Assembly (NCBI GenBank): GCA_018266295.1
Contig: JAFEAQ010000011.1
Location: 434,001 to 498,000 of the forward strand
Source of the DNA: Bdellovibrionales bacterium
GTDB taxonomy: Bacteria > Bdellovibrionota > Bdellovibrionia > Bdellovibrionales > Bdellovibrionaceae
Direction of reading: 5' to 3'
Length of the DNA: 64,000 bases
The notes below the pieces were generated by a model. That model was not told the origin of the DNA, made no database searches, and saw only the letters and a list, made by a program, of their open reading frames with translations. Below, piece by piece: positions 28,798 through 33,462 of this stretch; position 1 is the stretch's first letter; the number at the start of each line of letters is the position of its first letter. The position numbers and the translations under genes were made by a program.

Positions 28798-30033
28798 CTA
28801 AAACAGTTGCACCGCAGTCTTCACCCAACTGTCTTCGCCATTCTGTAGCTCTCCCAAATGATAATAGAGAACTTTATCGACCTGGACTCCTGGACCTTCG
28901 ATCTTGTGGCCCCGCTTCGTCTGATAAATCGCTTCAGGCACGGAGATTTTTACGCCCTGAGACAAAGCTGGCAATGGATACCAAACACCCACCAGCAACT
29001 GACCTGCACTGGCCGAGCCGAAGATTTTTGCTCCGATATAATCCTTCAATGCCTGCGCCACCATCTCGGCCGTCGAAGCACTGCTCGAGTCGACGAGAAC
29101 CGCGACCGACGCCGTTAAGCAGTCATAGTCCTCAAAAGTTAAAAGCCGAACAAGAAAAGACTCATCCAGAATCTCCACCTGGTGTTCATCATCGAGATCA
29201 TCAGGCAATACGGCTTCTTTTTTAAGTTTGGATTTTGGCTTCCACAAATACCCGATATCCTGAGAGCCGCACATAAACGGCGACAAAAACCGAAGACCTG
29301 CGACGAAATTCCCGCCCAAATTGCCGCGCAAGTCGACGATGATTTTCTGATACTTCTTAAGTTCTGCGATCTGCTTTCGCCACTGATCTTTTTCAAAATA
29401 CTCCGCACGGAAAGAAGGGACAACGAGCCTTGCCGTGCGCTCTGAAACCCGCTCGACGCGGGGGTTTTCTTCGCGCTTAATTTCTTTTGCGACGATTTTG
29501 TATTCAGTGATTTTTTTATTCCTGACAATAAGGTATTTGCCCGAGGTTTTCTCTGCGATTTCCGGAGTGCCGAGGTCATCGTTAATTTGGTAAATGATAT
29601 CACCCATGCGAAGGCCGACAGCCTCCGCCGGGGAATTGCGGTGAACTTTAAAGATGACAAGCTCCCCTTCGACGTAGCCGGACTCTATACCGGTCTCTGT
29701 ACTCTCGCCGCTCCAGACTCGTTTTGACTCGGCAGCATTGTAAATCACTAAGTGAGAGGTGTGGAGTGCCGAGAATTGATCATTGAGATCTTCGATGATG
29801 TTGCCGACTGCGGTATCTGGCTGAACAAGTTCGGAGCGCTTCAAACAATTCTGGCCCCAAGTTCGGACCGTGTCGCCATTCATGTAGATGTGCTCGGTCA
29901 CGAAATGGCAAATCTGTGCATAGGCGTTGACGGGTTTTGCTTTACGAACCGTCCAAACACCGAAGGCTATACACAGTAGTAAAAATAAAAAGCCAGGAAT
30001 CCATCCTGGCTTTTCGAAGACCTTCATCTTCAT
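28798..30033 (-). CDS. S41 family C-terminal processing peptidase
   Basis: A 411-residue protein anchored by an N-terminal membrane helix (PGFLFLLLCIAFGVWTV). A PDZ-like segment at about 120-165 (IFKVHRNSPAEAVGLRMGDI) is followed by the S41 catalytic core: VDLRGNLGGNFVAGLR, the catalytic Ser in VDSSSASTAEMVAQAL, then a Lys region (FGSASAGQLL) where the family has its general base. CTP/Tsp proteases trim envelope proteins in the periplasm. It lies 11 bp after the Fis-type regulator gene and its first codons contain a strong terminator hairpin; no ribosome site is seen before the ATG. Two in-frame ATGs (30033, 30027) are possible. Confidence 0.88.
   Translation of the reverse strand: MKMKVFEKPGWIPGFLFLLLCIAFGVWTVRKAKPVNAYAQICHFVTEHIYMNGDTVRTWGQNCLKRSELVQPDTAVGNIIEDLNDQFSALHTSHLVIYNAAESKRVWSGESTETGIESGYVEGELVIFKVHRNSPAEAVGLRMGDIIYQINDDLGTPEIAEKTSGKYLIVRNKKITEYKIVAKEIKREENPRVERVSERTARLVVPSFRAEYFEKDQWRKQIAELKKYQKIIVDLRGNLGGNFVAGLRFLSPFMCGSQDIGYLWKPKSKLKKEAVLPDDLDDEHQVEILDESFLVRLLTFEDYDCLTASVAVLVDSSSASTAEMVAQALKDYIGAKIFGSASAGQLLVGVWYPLPALSQGVKISVPEAIYQTKRGHKIEGPGVQVDKVLYYHLGELQNGEDSWVKTAVQLF
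29981..30014 (-). terminator. Intrinsic-terminator hairpin inside the S41 peptidase 5' coding region
   Basis: On the minus strand AAAAGCCAGGA and TCCTGGCTTTT pair perfectly around TGGAT and lead straight into TTTTTATTTTT. It covers codons 7-18 of the peptidase and so lies between the regulator gene and most of the peptidase gene. It could end the regulator transcript, or attenuate the peptidase depending on translation. Confidence 0.7.
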
Positions 30034-30739: not shown

Positions 30740-32404
30740 CTAGCAGCCCGTCGACGTGCCTGATGGCAATGGCTGCTGACGGCAACGAGGCTGACCTTCC
30801 GAACATTTCAAGCGCAGGTGGAAGTGATTGTCATGGCCTGGCGCTGATGTATTCAAGCTGCGCAATGTTCTGAATGCCACACTTGTTGTATCACCCGATT
30901 TGAAATCACCCGAGCGAGTTGCAAATGCACAGAGATCTTTCTTAATCACCGGATCGACAAAGATGAACGCCACGATGTTCTGTTCAACAAGGGACTTAAA
31001 CAACGTCCACTGCTCATCTTCCATAAAACTTCTTACAACTTTCGAAGACTCAACAGCATCATCAAGACCCTTTTGCTTGTTCACGTCATCAAAGTAGTAA
31101 GAGATATCTGCATCAATACCCATTTGATGGGAGCTATGGTTACCGAGGCTACCACCCTTTTGACGAGAGACATCTCCGACTTTTGTCACATAGCCATTTA
31201 CTTTAGCTTTGTTGAACTTACCGATATTCATGAGAGCGTTCAGCATATCTTCGGTACCGTAGTAAGTCTCACGCTTCGGATAGATAAAGTGAAAGCCGAT
31301 ATCTGGAATCTTCTGTTCATAGCTATAAAGATTCGTCGCGTTTTCCAAACGGCCAACCGTAAACTTAGGATTGCCACGCTTATCATAAACAACCGAAGTC
31401 ACCGCCTGGTTCAACTTACGAAGAATCGTACCGACAATACCCGTGTTCTCAGAATCAGATTTTGTATCTGTCTTCTTATCGTCTTTTGCAGGTTGTTGCT
31501 TAGGTTCCTGCTTCGGATCTTTCTGAGTATCTTGACCTGCGTTCTGTTTGTCATCCTTCTTACCGCCGGATTTAGGGTCTTGCTTGTTATCATCTTTCTT
31601 CGGCGACTCCTTCTGTGGAGTCAAATCCGGGAAGATCACGTTCACGTCACGCTCTTGCTGACCGACGTAGAAACCACCATTTTCATTGCTGTCTGCATCG
31701 CCATCGCTATGCTCGAACTGAGAGCCGTCATCCTCATACTGCTTCTTAGGCTTCTTTGGTTCTGGCTTCGCTGGAACATCTTTAGATGGCTCTAAAGACG
31801 GTGCATTTCCGCCCGTGCCTTTGCCTGAGCCTTTTGTAGGAGCCGAAGTTGTATCCGAGTCCTCATCATGTTGAGGATAGTTCCCCTTCGTAAAATCAGG
31901 GATCTCGTTTTTGTGTGCCTGAACCTGATGATGGTAGACATAATTATTTTGGTAAACGTAGATATCGATGAAAGAATCCGCACAGTTTGCAGTCAAGCAC
32001 GTGATCTTTGCGCCCATTCGCATATTCTGAGTGGCCAAGTGGTCGTTATTAAGCGGCTTCATGTATCCCATAGCGCCGAAATCAGGATCTTCTTCAATCG
32101 TTCCTTCGACATCGACTGGGACATTCACGCGACCGACGCCGATCACGTTTACAGCGACATTACCCTTCACAGATGTCTTTGCCGTTTTGCCGTCGATAGA
32201 AAGTTTGAGGTCGTTCGATTGAACATAACCTTCGACGATGGCGAGATCGCCGACTTTGCGGGAGATATAAGGTTGCTCAACTTTTTTGATTGTGGGTTGA
32301 GTTTCTTCCTTTTGCAGTGTCACCAATGGTTCCTGAAACCCGTGCGGCGAGCAGGATGCAAAAAGGAATGCCAGTAATGGTAATAATACGATCTTACGTT
32401 CCAT
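30740..32404 (-). CDS. MepA-type murein endopeptidase lipoprotein with long disordered linker
   Basis: A 554-residue protein. The lipobox LFASCSP near residue 18 predicts a lipid anchor. Residues about 30-170 are strand-rich; about 170-310 are a disordered linker very rich in Lys, Asp, Gln, Gly and Pro; about 330-535 are the peptidase. There SLGNHSSHQMGIDADISYYF supplies zinc-binding His and Asp, and APGHDNHFHLRLKC supplies the second His group, as in penicillin-insensitive endopeptidase MepA (M74). MepA cuts D-Ala-DAP cross-links of peptidoglycan. The ATG at 32404 follows GGAG; a GTG at 32416 overlaps that site. It is divergent from an L,D-transpeptidase gene. Action on the prey wall or its own wall is inferred. 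Confidence 0.87.
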   Translation of the reverse strand: MERKIVLLPLLAFLFASCSPHGFQEPLVTLQKEETQPTIKKVEQPYISRKVGDLAIVEGYVQSNDLKLSIDGKTAKTSVKGNVAVNVIGVGRVNVPVDVEGTIEEDPDFGAMGYMKPLNNDHLATQNMRMGAKITCLTANCADSFIDIYVYQNNYVYHHQVQAHKNEIPDFTKGNYPQHDEDSDTTSAPTKGSGKGTGGNAPSLEPSKDVPAKPEPKKPKKQYEDDGSQFEHSDGDADSNENGGFYVGQQERDVNVIFPDLTPQKESPKKDDNKQDPKSGGKKDDKQNAGQDTQKDPKQEPKQQPAKDDKKTDTKSDSENTGIVGTILRKLNQAVTSVVYDKRGNPKFTVGRLENATNLYSYEQKIPDIGFHFIYPKRETYYGTEDMLNALMNIGKFNKAKVNGYVTKVGDVSRQKGGSLGNHSSHQMGIDADISYYFDDVNKQKGLDDAVESSKVVRSFMEDEQWTLFKSLVEQNIVAFIFVDPVIKKDLCAFATRSGDFKSGDTTSVAFRTLRSLNTSAPGHDNHFHLRLKCSEGQPRCRQQPLPSGTSTGC

Positions 32405-32712
32405 AGGGATCTCCACGCTTCTCTACCAAGCACGAGATGTGCCAAAACGAGACACGCACTTAGCTCCAATTAATCCATCATCCATCCATTTTCATCTGTC
32501 GAACTTTTTAAAAAGCGACCCTTTTTGTCATCCCCCGAAGCCGCAAATTGTGGGGTCTCACCTCCAGGAGGCTTCGTTTATTTCCGCGACCTACGTTTTA
32601 TTTTTTCTCAGTCGAAGGTCTTGATTTCAATTGTTTAGTCAGCAAATCCGCGCCAGCAGCCGAAAACGTCTTGTAGCCTTTGAACGCACACTGAAACCAC
32701 AAGGGGGATCTA
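32405..32712. other. Divergent intergenic region between peptidoglycan genes
   Basis: 308 bp between two divergent starts. No gene is credible; it must hold both promoters. AACTTTTTAAAAAGCGACCC near 32506-32526 has a short AT-rich palindrome (CTTTTTAAAAAG), which could be an operator. No terminator or RNA structure is clear. Confidence 0.5.
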
Positions 32713-33462
32713 ATGGTAAAAATGATTTCAAGAGTATTTCTGATGTGCAGTTTGGTATTCAGTTTCACAGCTTGTGGCAACAACTTCAGTAACCCTGGTC
32801 AAACTGCGCTCAACGATGATCCGACAACAGAGCAGCCTGGGAATTCCGCTGCCGGTGAGGGAGACACGACGAATAAGGATTTGGGAGAGTTGACTCCGCC
32901 ATCCCAAAATCAAGGCGATAAAGACGTGGCTTTGTCCAAGTATGACTACTTGGATCCAAGTCACATCGTTCCAAGCAAAGCACTTGCTGATACTGTTGCT
33001 TACTTCGAGGCCAACCAATCAAAAATCAGCAACAAAAACTACATCGCTGTGATCAACTTCGCACAAAGCTCGAAAGAAAAACGTTTTTATATTATTGATA
33101 TGAAAACCGGCAAGGTGATGGCAATCCACGTTGCTCATGGCAAAGGTTCCGATCCTGATCACGACAGTTACGCAACAAAGTTCAGCAACGTCTCTGGCTC
33201 AAACGCAAGTTCACTGGGCTTCTATACGACAGCAGAAACTTACAGCGGCAACCACGGTCTTTCATTGAAATTGGATGGACGTTCAACAACAAACTCAAAC
33301 GCTCGTAGCCGTGCCATTGTTATTCACGGCGCAGACTATGTCAGCGAATCCAGCGTGACCCAAGGCCGCAGCTGGGGCTGCCCTGCAGTCACAATGAGCC
33401 TTCGCACTCAAGTGATCAACATGTTAAAGGGCGGCGCGCTCATCAACGCAGTCTACAAGTAG
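32713..33462 (+). CDS. Murein L,D-transpeptidase catalytic-domain lipoprotein
   Basis: A 249-residue protein. The signal ends in the lipobox SFTACGN (Cys about residue 20). A flexible acidic linker precedes the catalytic domain at about 85-249: NYIAVINFAQSSKEKRFYII, MKTGKVMAIHVAHGKG, then IVIHGADYVSESSVTQ and the active-site motif GRSWGCPAV, with Cys as nucleophile and His in HGADY. This is the YkuD-like family of PF13645 type. Such enzymes make 3-3 cross-links or exchange terminal residues. GGGGG precedes the ATG. Divergent from the MepA-like gene, it gives a wall-modifying pair. Confidence 0.9.
   Translation: MVKMISRVFLMCSLVFSFTACGNNFSNPGQTALNDDPTTEQPGNSAAGEGDTTNKDLGELTPPSQNQGDKDVALSKYDYLDPSHIVPSKALADTVAYFEANQSKISNKNYIAVINFAQSSKEKRFYIIDMKTGKVMAIHVAHGKGSDPDHDSYATKFSNVSGSNASSLGFYTTAETYSGNHGLSLKLDGRSTTNSNARSRAIVIHGADYVSESSVTQGRSWGCPAVTMSLRTQVINMLKGGALINAVYK

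Follow-up and report, generated by a model that had tools for sequence, protein, structure and literature searches.

A candidate regulator terminator within the first codons of an S41 peptidase gene in Bdellovibrionota

In-gene terminators and the present locus

Intrinsic terminators inside genes are known, and some of them respond to translation. An important example is the bmrB terminator of Bacillus subtilis, which brings about ribosome-mediated attenuation of bmrCD (PMC4191407). As far as the accessible part of that report describes it, a coding region ahead of the controlled sequence contains a perfect intrinsic terminator that allows partial read-through, a layout like the one proposed here. 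The bmrB leader ORF, however, has 53 codons, predicted anti-terminators and a drug response established by experiment (PMC4191407), whereas the terminator considered here would sit at the 5' end of the coding sequence of the very enzyme it controls, with no known anti-terminator or signal. In Escherichia coli, the in-gene intrinsic terminators of narY and rsxC are suppressed by coupled translation and, as at our locus, an in-ORF terminator has to be passed before full-length mRNA can be made; in the sections of the paper available, these terminators are found within operon genes, while ours appears to be the preceding gene's terminator overlapping the next start (PMC5021804). A map of E. coli 3' ends likewise contains premature ends in 5' UTRs and ORFs, largely ascribed to premature termination (PMC7815308). 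The likeness to our locus lies in the premature ends, which in E. coli were mapped experimentally, and the accessible portion of that article contains no regulator terminator that doubles as signal-anchor codons (PMC7815308). In the open-licence literature, we found no report on the regulator/peptidase pair described below, or on a signal anchor encoded by a terminator. What is added by the present locus is that the probable terminator of one gene also supplies the predicted signal anchor of the next, and that this arrangement is seen in several lineages.

The hairpin and its flanking genes

The locus lies in a 64,000-nt stretch of DNA from a Bdellovibrionales bacterium, a relative of predatory bacteria; this whole stretch is called the window, and the features of interest are listed in Table 1. 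The regulator scores 48.5 bits against HTH_8 (PF02954; curated cut-off 22) and falls far under the NCBIfam cut-off for Fis itself. The ORF that follows scores 75.9 bits against the S41 peptidase domain (PF03572; curated cut-off 24) and is under the cut-off of every NCBIfam model that it matched. Between the end of the regulator stop codon (30045) and the peptidase ATG (30033) lie 11 nt, the same gap as in the original prediction for this locus. A murein endopeptidase gene (M74, window 30740-32416) is found upstream on the strand of the regulator; next to it, a plus-strand ORF of 249 aa (window 32713-33462) may encode an L,D-transpeptidase-type protein.

Table 1. Coordinates of the regulator-peptidase junction and its elements in the window
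Feature	Position	Strand	Remarks
Fis-type regulator gene (HTH_8), 145 aa	30045..30482	minus	PF02954 E 7e-13
S41 peptidase ORF, PDZ-like part, 411 aa, intact	28798..30033	minus	PF03572 E 4e-21
Two in-frame ATG codons	30033-30031 and 30027-30025	minus	Sole ATG/GTG/TTG ahead of codon 51
Small hairpin GAAGAT-GAAG-GTCTTC	30016..30031	minus	RNAfold; directly ahead of terminator hairpin; contains second in-frame ATG
Putative terminator hairpin	29987..30015	minus	12-bp stem (11 Watson-Crick + outer G-U), 5-nt loop
T-rich tail ATTTTTACTA	29979..29986	minus	Directly 3' of stem; doubles as Phe/Leu signal-anchor codons
Predicted membrane anchor IPGFLFLLLCIAFGVW, codons 12-27	29953..30000	minus	Alignment A1, hydrophobicity scan

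Read along the minus strand from 30015 to 29987, the hairpin is GAAAAGCCAGGA-TGGAT-TCCTGGCTTTTT, and together with its tail it occupies codons 7-18 of the ORF at 30033-28798. The perfect 11-bp stem, 5-nt loop and T-rich run that had been noted on the coding strand at these codons were all found again. RNAfold gives the hairpin a free energy of -18.5 kcal/mol (z -5.7), and none of 200 dinucleotide shuffles was equally stable. A G+C-rich hairpin followed immediately by a T-rich run on the coding strand is what is seen at an intrinsic terminator, and by its sequence the window hairpin looks like a true one. When 83 nt around the site were folded, RNAfold returned the terminator, a small hairpin next to it and weak 3' pairing, with no competing (anti-terminator) fold in the MFE or centroid structure.

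Sites of this strength within genes can be set against the rest of the genome, for which 464 kb were scanned, namely the window plus a 400-kb sample of the same genome. Forty-five strong terminator-like sites, defined by a T-rich tail behind a perfect stem of 10 or more pairs, were counted, and seven of them fall within some ORF. Only the window hairpin and a weaker-tailed site, L185, lie close to where a long ORF (at least 402 aa) begins; the other five are in spurious-looking ORFs of 91-108 aa. In L185, a stem of 11 bp and a moderately T-rich tail lie just past the signal-peptide-like start of a 402-aa plus-strand ORF that begins at position 4045 of contig C11 (genome G000), and this is possibly a second in-ORF terminator of the genome. 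A laxer scan, in which 382 ORFs were kept, gave 12 hairpin sites near longest-ORF starts. Weaker look-alikes are thus not rare, in part because signal-anchor codons are T-rich.

The position of the peptidase start is important for any reading of the overlap. A start after the hairpin was rejected as the default for the window, since no ATG, GTG or TTG occurs between the hairpin and codon 51, and a start at codon 51 would delete the anchor. Full-ORF peptidase mRNA must therefore contain the hairpin. We place the start provisionally at the 30033 ATG, although the ATT at codon 12 or another rare start codon may also be considered. Neither in-frame ATG is preceded by a Shine-Dalgarno-like match, which bears out the earlier remark that the peptidase has no ribosome site. 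Part of the predicted anchor is encoded within the hairpin and its tail, so RNA and protein constraints do overlap here, as had been proposed. Compared with 16 homologues, the hairpin region of the protein has about 10 extra codons; among these homologues, L013 carries an extension of its own at the hairpin position.

Terminator position and peptidase start among relatives

The regulator was matched in all 66 genomes of the family (a few matches are weak or cover the HTH part only), and the peptidase is present in 34 of the 66 at E <= 1e-20. A search among phages found nothing. Removal of identical sequences left 63 distinct same-family regulator junctions. Where the junction includes the peptidase, 32 of 33 have a terminator-like hairpin 3' of the regulator, and where it does not, 21 of 30 have one, as scored by a finder that accepts loops of 3-8 only; some of the misses (e.g., L038) are hairpins with longer loops. 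Across the family this place at the regulator 3' end is retained even as the sequence varies, and we therefore assign the hairpin to the regulator, most plausibly as the intrinsic terminator of this upstream Fis-type gene. The idea of an intrinsic terminator within the first peptidase codons agrees with the hairpin, the T-run and their conserved place after the regulator. The further claim, that the purpose of the element is to couple peptidase output to translation, does not fit the hairpins found at this position behind regulators that have no peptidase after them.

The nearest genus, represented by L002, has the hairpin AAAAAGCCGGCGCC..GGCGCCGGCTTTTTT after the regulator stop, and ATGAAAGTC comes a few nucleotides later. 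In Bdellovibrio (e.g., L032/G044), the peptidase ATG is likewise past the U-tract. A MAFFT alignment of the window and L002 alone misplaced the hairpins and was discarded. We consider it likely that the window hairpin is the regulator's intrinsic terminator, overrun by the peptidase ORF, and that peptidase mRNA arises by read-through. The spacer that parts terminator and peptidase start in relatives would have been lost or overrun in the window lineage, for which spacer deletion and a shift of the hairpin are both conceivable routes. The ORF would then begin at the ATG, 18 nt before the hairpin starts, and the codons of its signal anchor would double as 3' arm and U-tract. Judging from sequence alone, the majority of regulator transcripts would terminate at the hairpin and the peptidase would be made from the read-through minority only, a supply that could result in a low, regulator-linked peptidase level.

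Across the order, the peptidase is found in 73 of 140 genomes at E <= 1e-15, including 13 of 13 in the family of G034. A script scored 63 of 65 distinct regulator-peptidase junctions as having a terminator-like hairpin, with the start after it in 51, within it in 10 and before it in 2, and with no terminator in the remaining 2. These classes were then corrected by reading. Three junctions (L010, L013 and L101) owed their call as starts after the hairpin solely to a TTG within or next to the U-tract and were recounted as overlaps. Three others called as starts within or before it (L056, L108 and L173) were dropped for a broken gene, a weak hairpin and an AT-rich hairpin. In L056 (genome G079), the peptidase homologue consists of separate matching pieces along a long open frame and may be damaged or rearranged. 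By reading, the start lies before or within the hairpin in 12 of the 65 junctions, in five genera and four families, with all start codons placed from sequence. These are the window, five junctions in genus g30 (family f10), four in g33 and one in g59 (both f4), and one in g21 (f2). The arrangement differs between genera. For instance, in g33 the ATG is in the hairpin loop, the 3' arm is read as Arg-Arg codons and the tail as Leu/Phe codons, while several g30 species have a start codon about 8-9 codons ahead of the hairpin. Other g30 species (e.g., G086, L147) have no good start codon close to it. A loop ATG in genus g36 (L169 and L170) was not counted as an overlap, as it is out of frame in L170 and a TTG follows. 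The U-tract of L170 has one T more than that of L169, and the loop ATG is in frame in one species only; this one-T difference indicates that an in-frame ATG inside a terminator need not be used.

Such layouts bear directly on the proposal that the peptidase is governed by a translation-dependent attenuator, in which a ribosome on the peptidase melts the hairpin and output rises with early translation. The ribosome might perhaps re-initiate from the regulator stop codon 11 nt upstream. In the window and in those g30 species with an early start codon, the start does precede the hairpin, and the window ORF is open through it. L013 also has a GAGGT match ahead of its GTG. Precedents are available as well, since the bmrB in-ORF terminator, as far as the accessible text goes, needs translation for efficient read-through (PMC4191407) and intrinsic terminators can be suppressed by advancing ribosomes, according to the available part of the E. 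coli work (PMC5021804). However, the window ATGs lack a Shine-Dalgarno match, and the roughly 24 nt between exposure of the start site and the termination point would probably be too short for most new initiations. In addition, the peptidase start is downstream of the U-tract in most junctions, out of reach of a peptidase ribosome, and this counts against the translation dependence that the original prediction had put forward. The start lies after the terminator in most junctions and in the loop in g33, which argues against attenuation as a general mechanism. Nor is it needed to account for the element, which keeps its position in junctions that lack the peptidase and in those whose peptidase start lies behind it. 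We regard attenuation as unlikely; it is possible in lineages with a start ahead of the hairpin. A broader reading can be offered, tentatively and with more doubt than confidence, for the Bdellovibrionota junction as a whole. The terminator would have moved repeatedly into the peptidase gene, where it ends the regulator transcript, encodes the anchor and acts as a translation-sensitive attenuator wherever the start precedes the hairpin, with Arg-Arg or hydrophobic codons forming the arms and Phe/Leu codons the U-tract. Orthologues whose start is before, in or after the hairpin provide a ready comparison of translation start and termination.

RNA-level constraint on the shared sequence

The overlap could also be a neutral accident of genome compaction, a relic with weak or no termination, in which case the peptidase would be an ordinary second gene of the operon. 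The window alone gives this idea some room. Its genus is represented by a single genome, so the stem could be such a relic, and the peptide itself favours pairing. When this peptide was recoded synonymously, a stem of 12 or more pairs survived in 1216 of 20000 recodings, and 45 of 3000 folded as stably as the native sequence. With a comparable stem kept in about 6% of recodings, such pairing is fairly likely from the peptide alone, and codon choice in the window is therefore weak evidence. On the other hand, the window stem is as long as the other strong sites of the genome, and hairpins are retained at the same place across the family.

More evidence against a relic comes from genus g30, for which five species (G034, G089, G086, G088 and G087) were compared. 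All five have the in-ORF hairpin in a single codon register, with the hairpin peptides VTTLERVSS, VTTLLGVSS, ITILLGVSL, MTMFFGASS and VTTFLLVSS. Five of 15 pairs have changed on both sides and 92% of cells pair, compared with 31-55% when the structure is slid along the alignment. The covariation score was reached by none of 500 shuffles, on five sequences and with shuffles that ignore relatedness. Among shared residues, the same codon is used at 32 of 36 stem codons versus 785 of 2054 beyond codon 24, a level of conservation matched by none of 20000 random codon sets. The covariation and codon-use tests agree on these few sequences, and the RNA pairs are preserved where residues of the anchor have been exchanged (V to I or M, S to L, L to F). 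From covariation and synonymous-site conservation together, it follows that terminator and signal anchor share a sequence under RNA-level selection in g30. The expectation that synonymous sites would keep the stem is thereby borne out in this genus, which is not that of the window, and a relic appears quite unlikely. Genus g30 is a clean natural case of how a protein segment tolerates selection at the RNA level.

In g33, covariation is weak and not significant, as its score was reached by 96 of 500 shuffles. Here another explanation can be considered, namely a peptidase promoter inside the terminator, with its -35 element before the hairpin and its -10 in the loop; the transcripts would lack the 5' arm, escape termination and be nearly leaderless. 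A TTGACC that could be the -35 element occurs at a near-fixed distance, 10-20 nt before the hairpin, in four of four g33 genomes (L007, L158, L159 and L161), and the loop is AT-rich with the ATG at its end. This promoter is nevertheless very improbable, as the spacing to the best -10 varies among these genomes, a consensus scan of the minus strand found no promoter-like site across the window hairpin and the regulator 3' end, and a start codon ahead of the hairpin makes the proposal inapplicable to the window and g30, leaving it as a rival for g33 only.

A second stretch of high synonymous-codon conservation was observed near the 3' end of the peptidase gene in L145-L148, at codons of about 404-413 (L145 numbering). 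It corresponds to CGCTCGGCNAAGGGC..GAGCTTGAG and encodes the peptide RSAKGQELEG.
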